From Halorussus sp. MSC15.2 (GTDB taxonomy: Archaea > Halobacteriota > Halobacteria > Halobacteriales > Haladaptataceae): 64,000 bases of DNA. The position numbers and the translations under genes were made by a program. The notes beneath the pieces were generated by a model. It did no database searches. It was given only the letters and a program-made list of their open reading frames with translations, and was not told where the DNA came from. Below, in pieces: positions 31,091-60,365 of the stretch; positions within the stretch are counted from its first letter, which is position 1; the number at the start of each line of letters is the position of its first letter. Where the stretch lies: assembly GCF_010747475.1 (NCBI RefSeq), contig NZ_VSLZ01000004.1, positions 124,001 to 188,000 of the forward strand. Reading direction: 5' to 3'.

Positions 31091-31789
31091 ATGCGACGCC
31101 GCGAATTCATCGCCGGTTCTGGCATCGTCGCCGCCTCCGCCCTCGCTGGCTGTACCGGAAGCAAGTCCCCGCCGCCTCGAAAGTCGAACGTCTTCCAGAC
31201 CATCGAGACGAAAAGCGGGAAACTGAGAGTGGACCTCGAAGACAACACGTGGGTCAAGTCACGCTACGACGGTGGCGGCCAGAACGCGCTGGCCGACCCC
31301 GACGATGTCGGCGGTCTCAGTCCGGTCGGCGGTGCCCGCGCGAAGGGCAAAGGCGGTGGCGGCGGCCGCGGAGCCACGGGTCGCGCGACCGGCGGCTACG
31401 CCAGCGCACCCAAGACCGGCCACGGCCGGGCGTGGTGGCACGGCGGCGACTACGCCGACGACTGGTACGAGAACCACCAAGACGAGGTGTCGAAGTACGG
31501 CGTGGCCGTCGCCACCGTCGGCGTCGCCTACCTCGGCAGTTCCGCGGCGATGGAAGACGACAAACCCGGCGCGGGTCCCGTCCCGTGGGACTGCCGCGTC
31601 GATAACCCCGACGACACGGAGGCCTGCCAAATCGGTACCGACGGCTGGTATCGAGTCGGCGCGGAACTCCGAGAGAAGAACGGCCACGACTTCGATTGGG
31701 AGTGCGTGGACCTGAAGGTGGACGAGACGACCGGTTCCGACGCCGGATACGAAGTCGAAAAGCAGTGGAAGGTCTCGCCTCGAATCTGA
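31091..31789 (+). CDS. Tat-exported lipoprotein, paralogue of the next gene
   Basis: The product has 232 residues. The N-terminus MRRREFIAGSGIVAASALAG-C is a twin-arginine signal with a lipobox (LAGC, Cys21), so the mature protein should be lipid-anchored outside the cell. A glycine-rich linker (about 78-100) precedes a conserved block, GHGRAWWHGGDYADDWYENH (about 112-131), and a C-terminal block ending EKQWKVSPRI. Three cysteines in the last third (CRVD, ACQIG, WECVD) may matter. I do not recognise a database domain. It is the first gene of a co-directional run with its paralogue, a membrane spermidine-synthase-like gene and DUF2617. Similar small lipoproteins accompany such synthases in bacteria. 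Confidence 0.8.
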   Translation: MRRREFIAGSGIVAASALAGCTGSKSPPPRKSNVFQTIETKSGKLRVDLEDNTWVKSRYDGGGQNALADPDDVGGLSPVGGARAKGKGGGGGRGATGRATGGYASAPKTGHGRAWWHGGDYADDWYENHQDEVSKYGVAVATVGVAYLGSSAAMEDDKPGAGPVPWDCRVDNPDDTEACQIGTDGWYRVGAELREKNGHDFDWECVDLKVDETTGSDAGYEVEKQWKVSPRI

Positions 31790-31903
31790 CATCCGGTAGC
31801 GTCCTCGCCCGACTCGGCCGATTCGCCCGGCCACTCGGCAGACTCGACCGACGCCCCTCCGATACCACGAAGATTACAAATGATACCTGAATACGTAGGC
31901 GCG

Positions 31904-32592
31904 ATGCGACGCCGCGAGTTTCTCGCCGGAACCGGCCTCGCCGGCGTCGGCGGTCTTGCTGGTTGTCTCGGCGGCGCGGACCCGACGCCCCCGCCGCGAA
32001 AGTCGTTCGTTCTCCCCGAACTCGAAACCGACGCCAAGACGCTCCGAATCCGAATCGAGGACGCGCCGTCGGTGCGAGTCCGAGCGGACGCGAGCGGTCC
32101 CAGCACAACCGGTTCCGGACCGACGACGGTCCCGGCGCGACCGGTCGGACCGGCGACGCCGACGACTTCGAGGCGGCCCCCAAGACCCGCCACGGCCGGG
32201 CGTGGTGGCACGGCGGAGAATACGCAGCCAAGTGGTACACCGACCACCGCGGGGAGGTGACCAAACGCGACGTGACCGTCGAGGAGGTCGGCGTCGCGTT
32301 CTTCTACAACCACTGGGGCAGATTCGACCAACCGGCCCTCCCCGGCGCGGGACCGGTCGATTGGGACCGGACCTTCGGACCCGAAGCGGTCGGTGAACTC
32401 ACCGACTCCGACGACGCGCTGACTCACGACCTCGACTCTCGGGACCGGTACCGCGTCGGCGCGCACGTCGTCACCGAGTCGGGCCGCGACCTCGGGTGGG
32501 AGTGCGTCGATTTCACGGCCGAACCCGAGACCAAAGACGGCACGCCGGGGTACTACGTCTCCGACCCGTGGAAGGTCTCGCCCCGAATCTGA
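31904..32592 (+). pseudogene. Second Tat lipoprotein gene, broken by a frameshift
   Basis: From ATG 31904 one frame gives MRRREFLAGTGLAGVGG with lipobox LAGC and the PPPRKSFVLPELETD block, parallel to the upstream gene. After about 32115 similarity moves to another frame, which continues HGRAWWHGGEYAAKWYTDH through DPWKVSPRI and ends at 32592. One G added to the GG at 32117-32118 would join them (GTDDGPGATGRTGDADD). Apart from this the two paralogues align end to end, and both end in KVSPRI. Recent decay or a base-calling error are both possible. Its stop is 20 bp from the next gene. Confidence 0.8.
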
Positions 32593-32612: not shown

Positions 32613-34382
32613 ATGCCGAACCCCTCTCGAACCAAGACGCTGACGCTACTCGCCATCACCTACGTCGTCTCGTTCTGTAGCTTCGCCTACGAGTTCGTCT
32701 ACTCCGAGTTACTGACGGTGATGTACGGCGGCACCGTGACCCAGTACGTCATCACCGTCGGCCTCTACTTCTTCAGTCTCGGCATCGGGTCGGCGCTCTC
32801 CGACGAGTTGCAGGGCGAGGCGCCGTCGAACTTCTTCCGGACCGAGGTGTACCTCGCCGCGGTCGCACCCGCCGGATTCATGCTCGTCGTCGGTCTGAAC
32901 AGCGTCGCCATCCCGGAGACCGTCCCGCCCGAACTCGTCTGGGTCGTGGCCCGACTTCCCGCCGTCGCGGTCGGGTTCCTTTCGGGCTTCGAACTCCCGC
33001 TGCTGACCCGGATGGTCGAGCGGACCGACGAGTCGGGCACGCTACTCCCTTCGAGTGTCGTCCGCATCTTCGAGCGAGTCCACGGGGTCGTCCTCGGCGT
33101 CTTCGCATGGTTCTGGAGCGTCGAACGGACGACGGGCGACCGGAGCGGCCTGTCGGTGGTGCTGGCGATGGACTACGTCGGCGGTCTGTTCGGCGCTATC
33201 GTCTACGCGAAGGTACTCTACCCCGCGCTCGGACTGGTTCCGACTATATTCGTGCTGGCGCTGCTGAACTGCGTCGCCGCGCTGGTCTTCGTCGTCCGGT
33301 TCAGCGAGCGCCCGTGGGGACTGTTCGCCGACGAGCGCCGCGGACTGGTGAGTCGGGAGTCCGGAGCGCTGTTGGCGGTCTGTCTCCTGTTGACCGCCGG
33401 GTACGCGGGCGCCGTCGCCAACCACCGACAGGTGGACCGGAGCGTGACCGAACTCTACCTCGAACAGCAGATAGAGTCCGAGTACGACAGGGGTGCGATG
33501 GACGCCGAAATCACGAGTCAGTGGACCACTCAGTACCAGCACGTCGTCCGGTACGACCGGACGTGGACCGGTTCGGGACCGAACCCGCACTTCTCGGGGA
33601 AGACCGAGCAGTGTCTGCGTCTCGGCACCGCGGTCCAACTCTGCGAGAGTTGGGCCGACTCCTACCATCAGGGACTGGTGGACGTGCCGATGTCGATGTA
33701 CGAGAACTCGCCCGAGACGAACGTCCTCGTCGTCGGCGGCGGCGACTGGATAGCCATCGACCACCTCCGGCAGTACGACGTCAGCGTGGACCACGTGGAC
33801 CTCGACGGCGAGTTCATGCGCCACGCGCGAAACGAGTCGTTCTTCTCGCGCTGGCACGACGACGCCTACCAGTACGACCGACTGAACACCACGGTGGGCG
33901 ACGGCTACGCGTACCTCCAGAACACCGACGAGAGCTACGACCTCGTGTTGCTCGACATCCCCGGCGCGACCGACGACGACCTGCTCAAACTCTACTCGAA
34001 GGAGTTCTACGGGTCGCTCCGGCGGCACCTCGAACCCGACGGTACGGTCGTCGCGTGGGGGTACTCCCAGTACGGGTTCCCCGAGCATCACAAGGCGTAC
34101 GTGAACACGGTCCGGGCGGCCGGGTTCGACCAGTTCGTCCCGTACTGGGCGTGGGAAGACGTGGACGGCGACGGCGAGACCGAACGCGTCGAGCAGTTCT
34201 ACGTCCTCGCGTCCGGCCAGCGCCCGGAGTTCCCCGCGCCCGACTCGGCCGAAGCGACCGACTACGTTCGAACGTACAGTGACCGCTATCGCGACCTGCG
34301 ATGGCGCGAGATTCCCCGCTACCGCGGCGTGAGGGTGAACTCGCTGTTCCACCCCAACTACGACATCCTCGTCGATACCTGA
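32613..34382 (+). CDS. Membrane-fused spermidine synthase-like protein
   Basis: The product has 589 residues from the ATG at 32613. The N-terminal half is hydrophobic with about seven helices (from LTLLAITYVVSFCSFAYEF to LLAVCLLLTAGYAGAV). The C-terminal half is a spermidine-synthase-like Rossmann domain: NVLVVGGGDW (about 368-377, where the usual GGGDG has Trp for the last Gly), VDHVDLDGEFM with the acidic adenosine ligand, VGDGYAYL and VLLDIPGATDDD at the active-site aspartate position. Because the GGGDG glycine is replaced, polyamine synthesis is uncertain. Such membrane fusions occur with DUF2617, DUF350 and DUF4178 genes in bacteria, and a membrane-stress role has been suggested there. 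Confidence 0.86.
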   Translation: MPNPSRTKTLTLLAITYVVSFCSFAYEFVYSELLTVMYGGTVTQYVITVGLYFFSLGIGSALSDELQGEAPSNFFRTEVYLAAVAPAGFMLVVGLNSVAIPETVPPELVWVVARLPAVAVGFLSGFELPLLTRMVERTDESGTLLPSSVVRIFERVHGVVLGVFAWFWSVERTTGDRSGLSVVLAMDYVGGLFGAIVYAKVLYPALGLVPTIFVLALLNCVAALVFVVRFSERPWGLFADERRGLVSRESGALLAVCLLLTAGYAGAVANHRQVDRSVTELYLEQQIESEYDRGAMDAEITSQWTTQYQHVVRYDRTWTGSGPNPHFSGKTEQCLRLGTAVQLCESWADSYHQGLVDVPMSMYENSPETNVLVVGGGDWIAIDHLRQYDVSVDHVDLDGEFMRHARNESFFSRWHDDAYQYDRLNTTVGDGYAYLQNTDESYDLVLLDIPGATDDDLLKLYSKEFYGSLRRHLEPDGTVVAWGYSQYGFPEHHKAYVNTVRAAGFDQFVPYWAWEDVDGDGETERVEQFYVLASGQRPEFPAPDSAEATDYVRTYSDRYRDLRWREIPRYRGVRVNSLFHPNYDILVDT

Positions 34383-34414: not shown

Positions 34415-35026
34415 ATGTCATCCACCGAAACTCGCCGACTCCACTTCGCGTACGCCGCCAGCGAACCGAATCTGGCGGCGTTCGACGTGAAGCGCGTCGT
34501 CCCGAGTCAGTTGCTCGGCGCGCCCGCCGCCCTGACCGTCATCGGCGCGTCCCACTACGTCGGCGTCCCCGAACTGAACTTCCACGAGGTCTGCTCGTGC
34601 GAGCCGATTTCCGGCGAATCGACCGCCGAGACGCCTCTCCGACGTGGCGTCGAGCGAGAGTTCGCGTTCGAGAACGACCGCGTCCGCGTCGAGACCAGCG
34701 CAGAGGTGCGACCTATCGACGCGTTCCCCGGTTCGGAGGCGGCCGACGCCGCCTTCCGATTCGGCCCGGACGCGTGGACGACTATCGAACTCGCCGCGTC
34801 CGACGACTCAGAGCGGTCCTCCGCTTCCGAATCCGCGGCGTACGAGACGTACCACACGTACCCCGAACACGGTCTCGCGGTGTACACGGAGACGACGCTC
34901 CGTCGGACGCGAGCGTCCACCGACCCTCAGAAACAGCAACAGTCTCGGACTGCCGAGCAGACCGACGATTCGACCGACGCTGTTCGAACGACCGGCGACC
35001 GACCCATCCCCGGAGACTCACGATGA
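34415..35026 (+). CDS. DUF2617 family protein
   Basis: The product has 203 residues from the ATG at 34415. The N-terminal 130 residues (LHFAYAASEPNLAAFDVKRV, LTVIGASHYVGV, CEPISGES, FENDRVRVETSAEVR) match the DUF2617 pattern, a family of unknown function that in actinobacteria sits next to spermidine-synthase, DUF350, DUF4178 and DUF4247 genes. The C-terminal 60 residues are polar and probably disordered. It lies 32 bp after the synthase-like gene, and its stop overlaps the next start (ATGA), so the three form one operon. Confidence 0.72.
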   Translation: MSSTETRRLHFAYAASEPNLAAFDVKRVVPSQLLGAPAALTVIGASHYVGVPELNFHEVCSCEPISGESTAETPLRRGVEREFAFENDRVRVETSAEVRPIDAFPGSEAADAAFRFGPDAWTTIELAASDDSERSSASESAAYETYHTYPEHGLAVYTETTLRRTRASTDPQKQQQSRTAEQTDDSTDAVRTTGDRPIPGDSR

Positions 35027-35979
35027 CCGACCAGACTTCAGAACCCTACGACGGCGACGTAACGCTCACCGGCCACGAAGACGCTCCCGTCGCGGTCCGC
35101 GACCCGGAGGACGTGTTCATCCGGGCCGACGGCGTGGCGGGCGACCTCGAACTCCGGAACCCCGAGTACGTCTTCACCCACTATCGGACAGGCGGCGGCG
35201 CGGACGTGGGCGACCCGGAGACGGTCGTCCGAGGTGACTTAGAGGACGGCTACGCCGAACCCGAGGGCGTGACCGGCGACGCCGCCGTCGCCGACGCGGA
35301 GGACGTGTTCGTCTCGGCCGGGGCGGTCGGCGGCCACCTCTCGGTCGTCGGCCCGGAGAACGTCTACGCCGACGAGGTCGAACCGCCCCGCGACCCCGGC
35401 GACTACGACGTGTCGCTCACGGGGTGGAAGCAGTCCGGCAGTTCCAGCGACCCCGACGCGGGCGTCCGGGTCACGGGCGCGCACCACGAGGTCACCGTCG
35501 AGCGAACCCGCACCGACATCGACGTGTACGTCGCGGGTCACGACCACGAGATAGAGATTACGGGACGCAGCGCCAGCGTCTCGGTGTACCTGCTGGGCTA
35601 CGACAACACCGTCACGGTCGGGCCGTATCTCGACAGCGAGGTGGTCGCGGACACCGGATTCGACAACGAAGTCGATGCCCAACCCTATCCGGTCGAGGAC
35701 CTCATCGAGACGACGAAGGAGGAGGCGTTCGACCGGGCCGGGTTCGGCCGCCGGAAAGTGACCTATCAGGTTCCCGCCGACGACGACTGGTGTCCCAACT
35801 GCGGGGAACCCGCCGACGCCATCGTGGCGCGCCACCAGATGGAGGCGCTGTTCGTGTTCGGGCATCCCATCAGGACCTACGAGCGCAGCACGAACCCCGC
35901 CAAGGAGTGCGAACACTGCTCGCGGAGCGCCTTCGACGCCGAACTCACCGAGAGCGAGCGCAAGGACGTGTTGCGGTGA
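35023..35979 (+). CDS. Beta-repeat protein with C-terminal zinc ribbon
   Basis: The product has 318 residues. The first 220 residues are a chain of short beta-rich repeats with recurring D-x-E-D-V-F and Y-x-x-x-x-V patterns (PEDVFIRADG, AEDVFVSAG, VSVYLLGYDN), suggesting a right-handed solenoid. The C-terminus holds a zinc ribbon, WCPNCGEPAD near 255-265 paired with ECEHCS near 295-300. No signal peptide or membrane helix is seen. It is translationally coupled to DUF2617. The fold and zinc site are inferences from pattern; I do not recognise the family. It precedes a pentapeptide-repeat channel gene by 146 bp. Confidence 0.72.
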   Translation: MTDQTSEPYDGDVTLTGHEDAPVAVRDPEDVFIRADGVAGDLELRNPEYVFTHYRTGGGADVGDPETVVRGDLEDGYAEPEGVTGDAAVADAEDVFVSAGAVGGHLSVVGPENVYADEVEPPRDPGDYDVSLTGWKQSGSSSDPDAGVRVTGAHHEVTVERTRTDIDVYVAGHDHEIEITGRSASVSVYLLGYDNTVTVGPYLDSEVVADTGFDNEVDAQPYPVEDLIETTKEEAFDRAGFGRRKVTYQVPADDDWCPNCGEPADAIVARHQMEALFVFGHPIRTYERSTNPAKECEHCSRSAFDAELTESERKDVLR

Positions 35980-36025
35980 GCGCAGATTCCCGACGGAGGA
36001 GTTCGCGTCGGTTTCGAAACACCTA

Positions 36026-36036
36026 ATCTATATATC
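36026..36036 (+). promoter_or_regulatory. TATA-like element upstream of the channel gene
   Basis: ATCTATATATC lies about 90-100 bp before the ATG at 36126 in GC-rich DNA. It is too far for a leaderless start, so a leader of about 70 nt is implied, or a short ATG frame at 36050 is used first. Confidence 0.4.
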
Positions 36037-36125
36037 GGTGGGGTGAACAATGACGGTACGTGTGACAGTCCCCCTCGAATCGCTCGCGAAACGCCCTCCG
36101 GCCGCTCGACCACGCGACCACACCC

Positions 36126-38453
36126 ATGGCACGAACTGAAGAACGGACCGCCGCCGACTCGACAGCCACCTGCCGATACACGTTCGACCCGTCCAAACGG
36201 ACCGAGGCGCGCCTCCAGACGACGTGGGAGTGCCCGCACGAACCGTACGGCGACAGCGACTACTGTCCGTTCCACATGTCGCGGGACGAACGGACCAGCA
36301 ACGACGTGTCCGGAGAGGACATCGTCGAGCGACTCAAACGGAACCTCGAATCGGAGGACGTGCGCGCCAACGAGTACGTGGGCGCGGACCTCCCGCACCT
36401 CTCGCTGACGTATCAGGACATCAGCGGCGGTAACAACCACGCACTCAACTTCCAGCACGCCGACATCGACGGGTTCGACATCACGAACGGGCATCTCGAA
36501 CAGGGACTCAATCTCCGCGGTGCCACGGTGGGCGCGCTCAAGTTCGAAGGCGCGACCGTCGGCGGTGCCCTCGAAGCCGACCGGATTTCGGTCGAAGGGA
36601 CGTTCTCGGCGTACGAGGCGACGTTCCGCGAGGACGTATCGTTCGCGGACGCGAGCTTCCACGGGGAAGTGAACTGCGACGAGACGACGTTCCGCGACGA
36701 CACGAGTTTCGAGAACGTGACGTTCCACGCCCCGGCCCACTTCCGGAACGTCGAGACGACCGGCACCAGCCACGTCCTCGACGACCACATCTCGTTCGGG
36801 GGCGCGACGTTCCGCGACGACGCGAGCTTCCGGCAAGCGACGTTCCAGTACGTCACCTTCACCGACGTGGCGTTCCACGCCGAGTCCGACTTCGAACACG
36901 TCGAGTTCGAGGGCGACAGCCAGTTCGGTGGGGTCGTGTTCGACCGCATGGCCGACTTCGACGAGGCCAAGTTCCACGACGACGCCTGCTTCGAGAACGC
37001 CCGGTTCAACGCCGTGGCCGAGTTCAGGGGCGTCGAGTTCAACGGCGGGAGTCGGACCACCAGCGACGACGTGACCTTCGAGAGCGCGCAGTTCGAGGAC
37101 GAAGCCGACTTCAAACTCGCGCGATTCCGATTCGCCGACTTCAAAGACGCCACCTTCGACGCCGAGTTCAATCTCGACCGGGCGGTCTTCGACGCCCGCG
37201 CCGACTGCCACCGCATCGACGTGGCGGGACGCGCCAACTTCGAGGCCACGGAGTTCCGCGACGGCGTGGCCTTCGACGAGGGCGCGTTCGCGGGCGACGT
37301 GGAGGCGGTCGAGGCCGAGTTCCACGGCGACGCCGACTTCGTCGGCGTGACGTTCCGCTCCCGCGCCCGGTTCACCGAAGCGCGGTTCCGCGAGGACGCC
37401 AGTTTCCGGGGAGCGACGTTCGAGGACGACGCCGTCTTCCGGGGTGCGATTTTCGAGGGCGAGGCAAAACATCTGGAGGAGAACGCCTGCTTCGACGAGG
37501 TGACGTTCGATGCGCTGGCGGACTTCGAGACCGCGAGTTTCACGAACGGGTCGTTCAGAGACGTGACGTTCGACGCCGAGTGCAACTTCCGAGGCGCGGA
37601 GTTCCTCGACGCGGTCCGGTTCCGAGTAGACGGGACCGGGAGAGGCGATACCTACGTGGACCTGTCGGGGGCGACGCTCGCCGGCGGTAGTATCGTCGTG
37701 ACTGCGGGCAACGTCGTCATCTACGACCTGACGAAGGCGACGCTCGGCGACCTCCAGTTGGAGAGCGAGACGAGCGAACACGAACTCCTCGACCACTTCC
37801 GGTTCTGTCTGACTGACTTCGACCGCTTCGACTTCAGCGACCACCACGCCTCGCTCGAACGCAACGACTGGAACCTCCACGACTTCGTCGGCGACGAGAC
37901 CTCCGGCCGGTACGACGTTGAGATGTCGAACGAGGTCGTCGAGGAGACCTACCGGAAGGCCCAAGACAGCGCCGACGCCGTCGGCGACACGCCCGCGATG
38001 CGGGAGTTCGAGTTCAAGCGGTACTTCTACAACCGCCGGAAGAACATCGACATCGTCCTCCACGAGTACTCAATCGACGCGTGGACTCGGGCGAAGAAGG
38101 CGTCCAGCGTCGGTCTCAACTTCTTCATGCAGTTCACCTGCGGCTACGGCAACCGTCTGCCCCGCATCGCCGCGCTCACCTTCCTGCTCCCCGCGCTGTT
38201 CGGCCTCTTCTACGTTCTCGGCGGCCCGCTGGAGACGGGGGCCGGAGTCGTCTGGGAGGCGAGCGCGCCCGCGACGACGTTGTTCGACGGACTGTACTAC
38301 AGTTACATCAGCTTCAGTACCATCGGTTACGGCGACATCGGACCCGTGGGCTGGGCGGCCAAGATTCTGGCCGCGAGTCAGGGGATGCTGAACGGGTTGT
38401 TCTTCACCCTACTCACGTTCACCCTGTTCAAGCGAGTGCTGGGCGGGAGCTAA
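36126..38453 (+). CDS. Pentapeptide-repeat protein fused to a 2TM potassium channel
   Basis: The product has 775 residues in one intact frame. The N-terminus carries a Cys/His cluster (CRYTF ... WECPHEPYGDSDYCPFH, about 16-58) likely to bind zinc. Residues of about 90-560 are pentapeptide-like repeats of the form A-x-F-x-x (GATFRDDASFRQATFQ), a quadrilateral beta helix. The C-terminal 110 residues hold two membrane helices (ALTFLLPALFGLFYVLGG and AKILAASQGMLNGLFFTLL) around a pore loop with the selectivity filter STIGYGD at about 730-736. The pore predicts a tetrameric K+-selective channel with a large cytosolic solenoid. What the repeat domain senses or binds is unknown. It is co-directional with the DUF2617 module. 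Confidence 0.88.
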   Translation: MARTEERTAADSTATCRYTFDPSKRTEARLQTTWECPHEPYGDSDYCPFHMSRDERTSNDVSGEDIVERLKRNLESEDVRANEYVGADLPHLSLTYQDISGGNNHALNFQHADIDGFDITNGHLEQGLNLRGATVGALKFEGATVGGALEADRISVEGTFSAYEATFREDVSFADASFHGEVNCDETTFRDDTSFENVTFHAPAHFRNVETTGTSHVLDDHISFGGATFRDDASFRQATFQYVTFTDVAFHAESDFEHVEFEGDSQFGGVVFDRMADFDEAKFHDDACFENARFNAVAEFRGVEFNGGSRTTSDDVTFESAQFEDEADFKLARFRFADFKDATFDAEFNLDRAVFDARADCHRIDVAGRANFEATEFRDGVAFDEGAFAGDVEAVEAEFHGDADFVGVTFRSRARFTEARFREDASFRGATFEDDAVFRGAIFEGEAKHLEENACFDEVTFDALADFETASFTNGSFRDVTFDAECNFRGAEFLDAVRFRVDGTGRGDTYVDLSGATLAGGSIVVTAGNVVIYDLTKATLGDLQLESETSEHELLDHFRFCLTDFDRFDFSDHHASLERNDWNLHDFVGDETSGRYDVEMSNEVVEETYRKAQDSADAVGDTPAMREFEFKRYFYNRRKNIDIVLHEYSIDAWTRAKKASSVGLNFFMQFTCGYGNRLPRIAALTFLLPALFGLFYVLGGPLETGAGVVWEASAPATTLFDGLYYSYISFSTIGYGDIGPVGWAAKILAASQGMLNGLFFTLLTFTLFKRVLGGS

Positions 38454-58733: not shown

Positions 58734-60365
58734 ATGGAAACGTGGAAGCGCCGAACGCTCTACTACGTCTCGACGCTCGTCGCCGTCTTCGTCGGGTACG
58801 CGCTGATTTACGACTACGGGATGGCCGTCCACGAGGGCCACACCCAACCGTTCTACCAGTCCATGCAGGTCGTGGTGGAGACGTTCACAACGACCGGGTA
58901 CGGGTCGGACGCGCCGTGGGAGACCCCCGAGATGAACCTGTTCGTCATGCTCATGGACCTGACCGGCGTGGTCCTCATCTTCGCGGCCTTGCCGGTGTTC
59001 GTCGTCCCGTTGTTCGAGGACGCGCTCTCGACCACGCTCCCGACGTCGGTCGAGGACCTCGAGGACCACGTCGTTATCTGTACGCACACTCCACGGGCCG
59101 AGACGCTCATCTCCGAACTGGAGTCGTGGGACGTCGAGTACGTCGTCGTCGAACCCGACCGCGAGACCGCACTGGACCTCTACGAGTCGGACTACTCGGT
59201 GATTCACGGCGACCCCGAGTCGGTCGAGACGCTGGAGAACGCGAACCTCGACGCCGCGACCGCACTCGTCGCCGACGCCGGCGACGAAGTGGACGTGAGT
59301 ATCGTGCTGACGGCGCGGGAGGCCGCCGAAGACGTGCGCATCGTCAGCGTCGTCGAGGAACCCGACCACGAGGCGTACCACGAACTCGCGGGCGTGGACG
59401 AGGTCCTCTCGCCGCGGCGACTCGTCGGCGAGAGTCTGGCGGACAAGATTACCACCGCCGTCTCGACGGAACTCGGCGACGTGGTCGAAATCGGTTCGGA
59501 CTTCGAAATCGCGGAACTCTCGGTCCAGCGCGGGAGCGAACTCGTCGGTCACACCCTCGCCGAGAGCGGTATCCGCGAGCGCTCGGGAGCGAACGTCATC
59601 GGGGCGTGGACTCGCGGCGAGTTCGAGACGCCGCCGTCGCCGGAGACCGAACTCGCCGCGGGGACGGTCCTGCTGGTCGCCGGGCGACAGGCCCAACTCG
59701 AACGTCTCAACGACCTCGCGAGTTCGACCGCCCGGAGTCCCCGGCGGGGGACGGTCCTCGTGGTCGGTCACGGCGAGGTCGGTTCGACCGTCACCGACGC
59801 GCTCGCCGCCGCGAACATCTCCTACACCGTGGTGGACGTCGCGGACAAACCCGGTGTGGACGTGCAGGGCGACACGACCAACCCCGAAACGCTGGAGCAG
59901 GCGGGCATCGAACAGGCCCGAACCGTGGTGTTCACCGTCGCCGACGACACGCTGACCGGATTCGGGACGCTGGTTGCGCGCGACCTGAACCCCGACATCG
60001 AGGTGTTGGCCCGGGCCGAGGAGACCGGGAACGTCAAGAAACTCTACCGGGCCGGGGCCGACTACGTGCTGGCGCTGGCCACCGTCTCGGGGCGGATGCT
60101 CGCCTCGACGATTCTGGAGCGCGAGGAGGTCATCTCGATGGACAAGCAGGTCGAAATCGTCCGGACGACGGCCACGGAGTTCGTCGGCCAGAGTCTCGCC
60201 GAGACCGACATCCGCGCCCGAACCGGGTGTACGGTCGTGGCGGTCGAACGCGACGGCAGTGTCGTCACGGAACTGGGACCGGACTTCCACTTCCGGCGGG
60301 GCGACGACGTCATCGTCGCGGGCACCGACGAGAGCGTCGGTCGGTTCACGACGCTGGCGAACTGA
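58734..60365 (+). CDS. Potassium channel with two TrkA/RCK modules
   Basis: The product has 543 residues. Two membrane helices (about 8-28 and 68-90) flank a pore with FTTTGYGSD (51-59), the K+ selectivity filter. Two TrkA-N Rossmann domains follow (VVICTHTPRAETLISELESW near 113-132 and VLVVGHGEVGSTVTDALAAA near 341-360), each with a TrkA-C domain (AELSVQRGSELVGHTL and TATEFVGQSLAETDI). The first N-domain lacks the GxGxxG glycine string, reading CTHTPRAE, so it may not bind nucleotide. It mediates regulated K+ flux, central to the salt-in strategy. Confidence 0.92.
   Translation: METWKRRTLYYVSTLVAVFVGYALIYDYGMAVHEGHTQPFYQSMQVVVETFTTTGYGSDAPWETPEMNLFVMLMDLTGVVLIFAALPVFVVPLFEDALSTTLPTSVEDLEDHVVICTHTPRAETLISELESWDVEYVVVEPDRETALDLYESDYSVIHGDPESVETLENANLDAATALVADAGDEVDVSIVLTAREAAEDVRIVSVVEEPDHEAYHELAGVDEVLSPRRLVGESLADKITTAVSTELGDVVEIGSDFEIAELSVQRGSELVGHTLAESGIRERSGANVIGAWTRGEFETPPSPETELAAGTVLLVAGRQAQLERLNDLASSTARSPRRGTVLVVGHGEVGSTVTDALAAANISYTVVDVADKPGVDVQGDTTNPETLEQAGIEQARTVVFTVADDTLTGFGTLVARDLNPDIEVLARAEETGNVKKLYRAGADYVLALATVSGRMLASTILEREEVISMDKQVEIVRTTATEFVGQSLAETDIRARTGCTVVAVERDGSVVTELGPDFHFRRGDDVIVAGTDESVGRFTTLAN

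Follow-up and report, generated by a model that had tools for sequence, protein, structure and literature searches.

A pentapeptide-rod potassium channel linked to a spermidine-synthase-like membrane protein in haloarchaea

In the haloarchaeon Halorussus sp. MSC15.2 a single gene joins a long pentapeptide-repeat beta-helix – a rod – to a two-helix pore that carries an intact potassium selectivity filter. The fusion is widespread among haloarchaea, where it is linked to, and co-occurs with, a membrane protein resembling spermidine synthase, and its modelled fold is related to that of the phage-defence channel HalA. We propose, with confidence that is evenly balanced, that the protein is a K+ channel gated from the side of its N-terminal rod and that it serves as the output of a five-gene, aminopropyltransferase-like membrane module.

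Results

Architecture of the channel

The gene occupies positions 36126..38453 on the plus strand of the window, by which we mean the whole stretch of 64,000 nucleotides that was analysed. It is a single frame of 775 amino acids without internal stop, delimited by the open reading frame, Pfam, an AlphaFold2 model and orthologues. Reading from the N terminus, with all features on the plus strand, the sequence begins with a zinc-knuckle-like Cys/His cluster (C16-C36-H38-C47-H50; 36171..36275), which is followed by a pentapeptide-type beta-helix at residues 85-548 (36378..37769; PF13576, model and a 5/11/22 periodicity). Conserved linker helices come next (residues 602-672; 37929..38141; alignment and model), and lead into a motif, CG[YH]GxRxxRI, defined by alignment at residues 672-681 (38139..38168). 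The first transmembrane helix, TM1, spans residues 678-697 (38157..38216; hydropathy and model), the pore helix and selectivity filter TIGYGD residues 715-737 (38268..38336; model and Ion_trans_2), and TM2 residues 743-771 (38352..38438; sequence and model).

Both halves are recognized by Pfam: Pentapeptide_3 (PF13576) matches at 148 bits (E 8e-44; cut-off 27) and Ion_trans_2 (PF07885) at 38.8 bits (E 8.6e-10; cut-off 22.5). The AlphaFold2 model, built with 42 homologues, has a mean pLDDT of 87.2; in it the beta-helix takes up some 465 residues (approximately 85-548, pLDDT mostly 85-98), and a pore helix (715-731) and then the filter (732-737) lie between TM1 and TM2. A preliminary description of this DNA had placed a Cys/His cluster, a pentapeptide solenoid and a two-helix STIGYGD pore in one frame at these coordinates, and Pfam and the model bear it out.

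The regularity of the rod is not a product of chance. Residues 85-550 contain 26 Phe-Phe pairs at a spacing of five, against a mean of 7.0 and a maximum of 15 after shuffling. Phe-Phe spacings peak at 5, 11 and 22, from which the coils look to be about 22 residues long (5+6+5+6) rather than a strict 20. At the other end, the protein terminates four residues past TM2; there is thus no C-terminal gating domain, and the cytosolic part would lie wholly before TM1. Both transmembrane helices are flanked by basic residues on one and the same side (R677, R680, K769, R770).

For the pore module, the PDB sequence-profile matches listed belong to K+ channels such as TOK, Kv, KirBac and KcsA, and a fold search with the C-terminal part alone likewise matches many K+ channels. 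The channel is very probably K+-selective, and would conduct K+; a tetramer bearing four rods can reasonably be inferred. Elsewhere in the window (58734-60365) a 543-aa open reading frame with TTTGYGSD near its N terminus looks, from its sequence, like a second K+ channel.

Conservation and distribution

Frame and length of the channel are kept in orthologues ranging from 96 to 31% identity. No variation is seen among 16 aligned members in the filter's GYG core, in linker residues E606, T608, Y609, E627, F628 and R637, or in the pre-TM1 motif C672-G-[YH]-G-x-R-x-x-R-I; bacterial relatives, too, have the GYG core of that motif. Within the rod, conservation falls mostly on the hydrophobic ladder. 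The T[IV]GYG filter is intact in all 38 operon-type close relatives, which rules out a degenerate pore for this clade; degeneration is true only of some paralogues, the filter having been lost in four that form an outgroup (L042-L045).

Paralogues of this kind, with the same rod, linker and two transmembrane helices, lie at L042:9356-11017, L043:7793-9967, L044:7969-9879 and L045:8366-10072, and also at loci L112 and L114. They have no GYG filter (examples of what they carry are SILLGSTFF, TLVLGGAAE, TFLLGTAP and TGNRYGG) and may conduct a different species or be non-conducting sensors. The Cys/His cluster, which the preliminary description had counted as part of the architecture, is retained in 21-22 of 42 family rows and is therefore accessory; its absence from about half of the relatives rules it out as an essential zinc sensor.

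A scan of named genomes returned 57 channel relatives, all archaeal, and the same fusion, when sought in other taxa, is thus found across Halobacteria: in Haloferax, Natrinema, Haloarcula, Haloquadratum, Natrialba, Halosimplex, Halorientalis and others, plus Actinarchaeum. Together with full-length orthologues of 64-96% identity in the genus and family, these loci rule out an oddity of a single genome. Fusions with shorter rods extend to further lineages of the phylum, to other archaea, and to Aeromonas and Nostoc; the relative from Aeromonas caviae has the Cys/His cluster, the rod, a CGYGEAP motif and TLGYGD. The closest named record is a plasmid of Halorussus aquaticus. Its channel (95.6% identical) bears no annotation beyond 'pentapeptide repeat-containing protein', and the neighbouring genes are labelled spermidine synthase, DUF2617 and hypothetical proteins. 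We found no description of a pentapeptide-rod/K+ pore fusion in the literature. The preliminary description is borne out in joining a large N-terminal beta-helix to a K+-type pore, but overstates in calling this architecture unusual: the fusion is widespread and has a probable precedent in HalA.

Channel loci are often found on megaplasmids, patchily within genera and with scars of loss; in the 57-locus scan they are often chromosomal too. At one scar all that is left of the channel is its C-terminal 176 codons (L038:8797-9354, genome G016), at a second only the lipoprotein and a 34-codon fragment of the synthase-like gene described below (L089, G017), and at a third the channel is frame-broken (L041:8640-10016, G003).

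A conserved five-gene unit

What the preliminary description missed is that the channel belongs to a conserved five-gene unit, and this is the best lead to its gating. The unit comprises a Tat-type lipoprotein, a membrane-bound spermidine-synthase-like protein, a DUF2617 protein, a zinc-ribbon/DUF3060 protein and the channel, and in the window all partner genes lie upstream of the channel, on the plus strand. The lipoprotein (MRRREF...ALAGC; 31091..31789) is recognized from its sequence. The synthase-like protein (32613..34382) is a membrane protein with a C-terminal domain of the GGGDW type, as in HVO_B0357 (PF01564, 2.8e-16, and alignment). The DUF2617 protein (34415..35026; PF10936 and conservation) has invariant H47, E58, H147 and E151, and the DUF3060 protein (35023..35979; PF11259, 8e-7, and conservation) an invariant four-Cys zinc ribbon (C257, C260, C296, C299). 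Sequence comparison reveals a second lipoprotein of the same family at 31880..32592, which in the window spans two frames, the interruption being either a mutation or a sequencing error; in the H. aquaticus copy it is intact and 40% identical to the first. A gap of 146 bp with a TATA-like stretch precedes the channel, which may therefore have its own promoter. The stretch (CTATATATCG) lies at window positions 36025-36045, about 90 bp upstream of the channel start.

The five-gene set is kept in Halorussus and neighbouring genera, and further afield in several of the order's families. Of the 57 loci, 43 have the synthase-like gene no more than 8 kb from the channel, and the lipoprotein family, the DUF3060 gene and DUF2617 are near it in 44, 44 and 45, respectively; several different gene orders and orientations are represented. 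Between genes of the operon, pairwise distances are correlated (0.83-0.91). In a survey of 195 genomes the channel was present in 21 of 21 that have the synthase-like gene and in 4-5 of the 174 that do not (Fisher 1.6e-24, kinship being ignored); for two genomes (G050 and G034) the channel was counted from a sighting in the gene neighbourhood. It is highly likely, in our estimation, that the five genes form one functional unit.

The partnership has its exceptions. Four genomes have the channel without the synthase-like gene; two others (G035 and G029) have no adjacent channel, but one elsewhere in the genome; and in Haloferax larsenii the two genes share a plasmid at a distance of some 160 kb. 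Identity to the copy in the Halorussus window is 58-66% for the synthase-like protein at four loci (L147, L157, L164 and L170) but only 31-38% for the channel. One-to-one partnership of channel and synthase is therefore loose, as if the place had been filled by another kind of channel from the family or the channel had diverged faster. On one Halorussus plasmid (genome G013) the operon is present twice (L032 and L033), with a stop codon splitting the synthase-like gene of one of the copies.

The synthase-like partner

The domain that gives the partner its name aligns with solved spermidine synthases in the PDB (1.3e-15) and retains GGGDW, D393, D396, D430 and D448. The second aspartate of the D-x-x-D-P motif, which has a role in spermidine synthases, corresponds in this family to G451. 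Ordinary spermidine synthesis by the partner is unlikely given that the AdoMet decarboxylase PF02675 was absent from all 44 genomes in a profile search whose control matched in 8; in the search for the class-2 decarboxylase the control itself gave no match. DUF2617 (PF10936) was detected solely in genomes with the synthase-like gene, Haloferax volcanii being one of two control genomes that match it. DUF350 (PF03994) was found in none of 13 genomes, with matches to the controls.

Passages of an earlier study report that halophiles have no AdoMet decarboxylase and no spermidine, and that putrescine-binding residues have been lost (PMC5178350). The same passages leave the role of HVO_0255 and HVO_B0357 open, and record no phenotype under the conditions tested when HVO_B0357 was deleted in Haloferax volcanii. 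The two proteins are told apart by their motifs, GGGD(W/Y) in HVO_B0357 and GG(GA)G(F/Y) in HVO_0255, in a passage of PMC6267482.

Relationship to HalA

For the full channel model the sole PDB fold match below 1e-3 is 9nyi_A, HalA bound to oligodeoxyadenylate (E 3.1e-4, probability 1.00, target TM-score 0.42). When only the C-terminal part is used, HalA has an E-value (0.084) no better than those of the other K+ channels, and its query TM-score is among the highest for the non-redundant full pores that were listed; it is not among the PDB sequence-search matches listed. The HalA profile NF051894 matches 6 of 18 pore/linker members, weakly (best 1.4e-5), and matches the relatives from Nostoc (170-468 to HalA 50-338, 5.7e-6) and Aeromonas (179-328 to HalA 204-338). 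The part of the profile at about positions 50-130 also picks up plain pentapeptide proteins; positions 185-338 match the linker and pore of the channel family. The curated cut-off of 250 bits was exceeded in none of 148 genomes, and the Halorussus genome itself gave no match.

Scores so far below the cut-off mean that the proteins of this family are not HalA. HalA, we infer, is a short and distant representative of the pentapeptide-rod channel architecture, and since it is apparently a short version, a pore gated by a beta-helix has a probable precedent. Membership of the Hailong system is ruled out by the cut-off and by the neighbouring genes: no nucleotidyltransferase, the HalB-type partner, was recognized among the conserved neighbours of the channel (lipoprotein, synthase-like, DUF2617 and DUF3060). 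A search with the channel protein against phages was empty. The best viral fold match is a 351-aa protein of Paracoccus phage Shpa (BFVD A0A0U2C121, 8.9e-4), possibly a relative of HalA or of the channel family carried by a phage.

Discussion

We envisage a tetrameric two-TM K+ channel whose gate would be controlled from the N-terminal, presumably cytosolic, side: the capping strands of the beta-helix and the linker helices would push or pull TM1 through the CG[YH]GxRxxRI segment. The channel would then be the ion-conducting output of a module made up of the lipoprotein, the aminopropyltransferase-like, DUF2617 and zinc-ribbon/DUF3060 proteins and the channel itself. The lipoprotein would be external and the aminopropyltransferase-like protein embedded in the membrane, and the module would most likely sense envelope or ionic stress. 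A metabolite or protein state arising from the aminopropyltransferase-like/DUF2617 pair would be read by the rod, and would set channel opening. That the gating signal comes from the synthase-like protein is a suggestion we make tentatively, with less than even confidence, and the identity of the signal or ligand is presumptive.

A bolder version can be put forward, which we regard as rather doubtful. Pentapeptide-rod K+ channels would constitute a ligand-gated class that crosses domains and includes HalA as its one studied member. The haloarchaeal signal would be made by an orphan aminopropyltransferase-like protein that uses another donor or acceptor in place of decarboxylated AdoMet and putrescine, and the operon would be a device for metabolite-to-K+ signalling.

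Several of the same observations admit other readings. A long, regular beta-helix conserved mostly in its hydrophobic ladder could be mainly a scaffold or force sensor, opening on osmotic or envelope strain or on binding of the DUF3060/zinc-ribbon protein, without a small ligand. A unit that consists mostly of lipoprotein, membrane and predicted complex-forming proteins, in organisms that depend on very high internal K+, would suit such a function; yet the enzyme-like genes are retained as tightly as the rest of the unit, and the closest structural relative, HalA, is ligand-bound. This explanation strikes us as unlikely. Another reading is an ordinary, ungated K+ leak or uptake channel whose place in the operon is incidental. 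The canonical filter speaks for such a channel, but linkage and co-occurrence far above chance (kinship again ignored) and the large conserved, presumably cytosolic part make it very improbable.

The relationship to HalA invites a further reading: a defence effector, held shut like HalA by a bound signal, that opens on virus attack and halts the host cell. Besides the fold match and the profile matches in 6 of 18 pore/linker members and Nostoc 170-468, the frequent location on megaplasmids, the patchiness within genera and the loss scars are as this reading would have it. Against it stand the lack of a recognized nucleotidyltransferase among the conserved neighbours and a HalA cut-off that is never attained. 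PADLOC left the channel unmatched; within the unit it picked out only the synthase-like domain, which weakly matches a Mads protein (E 8.7e-7). Moreover, the five-gene composition is stable class-wide and often chromosomal, unlike that of typical defence cassettes; we consider a defence role improbable. The rod-gated channel as output of the five-gene module is the reading we carry forward.

Haloarchaea balance a molar, very high internal K+, and a regulated K+ pore therefore bears directly on their physiology. If our proposal is true, there exists a widespread and unstudied class of K+ channel, gated by a beta-helix from the N-terminal side and tied by descent to a phage-defence channel. Proteins of the HVO_B0357 type would gain a testable role in organisms that do not synthesize spermidine, and the gene set is present in Haloferax, a genetically tractable genus.

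Comparison with known systems

The pore resembles those of KirBac3.1, KcsA and TOK in its succession of TM1, pore helix, T[IV]GYG-type filter and TM2. Kir and RCK-type channels have their main cytosolic gating domains C-terminal to TM2, whereas the presumed cytosolic part of the Halorussus channel precedes TM1 in its entirety. With HalA the channel shares a soluble N-terminal part, a linker and a C-terminal two-TM pore that ends the protein. HalA differs in being about 338 aa long and paired with an enzyme system that makes single-stranded DNA; the Halorussus channel has a 465-residue rod and other partner genes. In Hailong anti-phage defence, as a passage of PMC12657230 describes it, single-stranded DNA oligomers suppress the effector.

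Among the partners, the synthase-like protein (32613-34382) has the GGGD(W/Y) motif and the 7TM-plus-synthase layout of HVO_B0357, the SpeE-like membrane protein of Haloferax volcanii, which in the passages concerned of PMC5178350 and PMC6267482 is handled alone, without a link to DUF2617 or to a pentapeptide channel. The unit as a whole resembles bacterial operons in which DUF2617, DUF350 and a K+ channel that senses ligands inside the cell accompany either a 7TM spermidine synthase or different polyamine genes (PMC11237479). The haloarchaeal unit differs from these in that its channel is of the pentapeptide type, in the addition of the DUF3060/zinc-ribbon gene, and in that DUF350 and class-1 AdoMet decarboxylase were not found with it; among its neighbours, none was recognized as belonging to a PspA/CesT-Tir dyad. 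There is a parallel in layout with these polyamine/PspA operons (7TM spermidine synthase, DUF350, DUF2617/DUF4247 and K+ channel): both have a spermidine-synthase-like protein in the membrane, together with DUF2617, a lipoprotein and a K+ channel, and the invariant H47, E58, H147 and E151 of DUF2617 broadly agree with the enzyme prediction made for it in PMC11237479.
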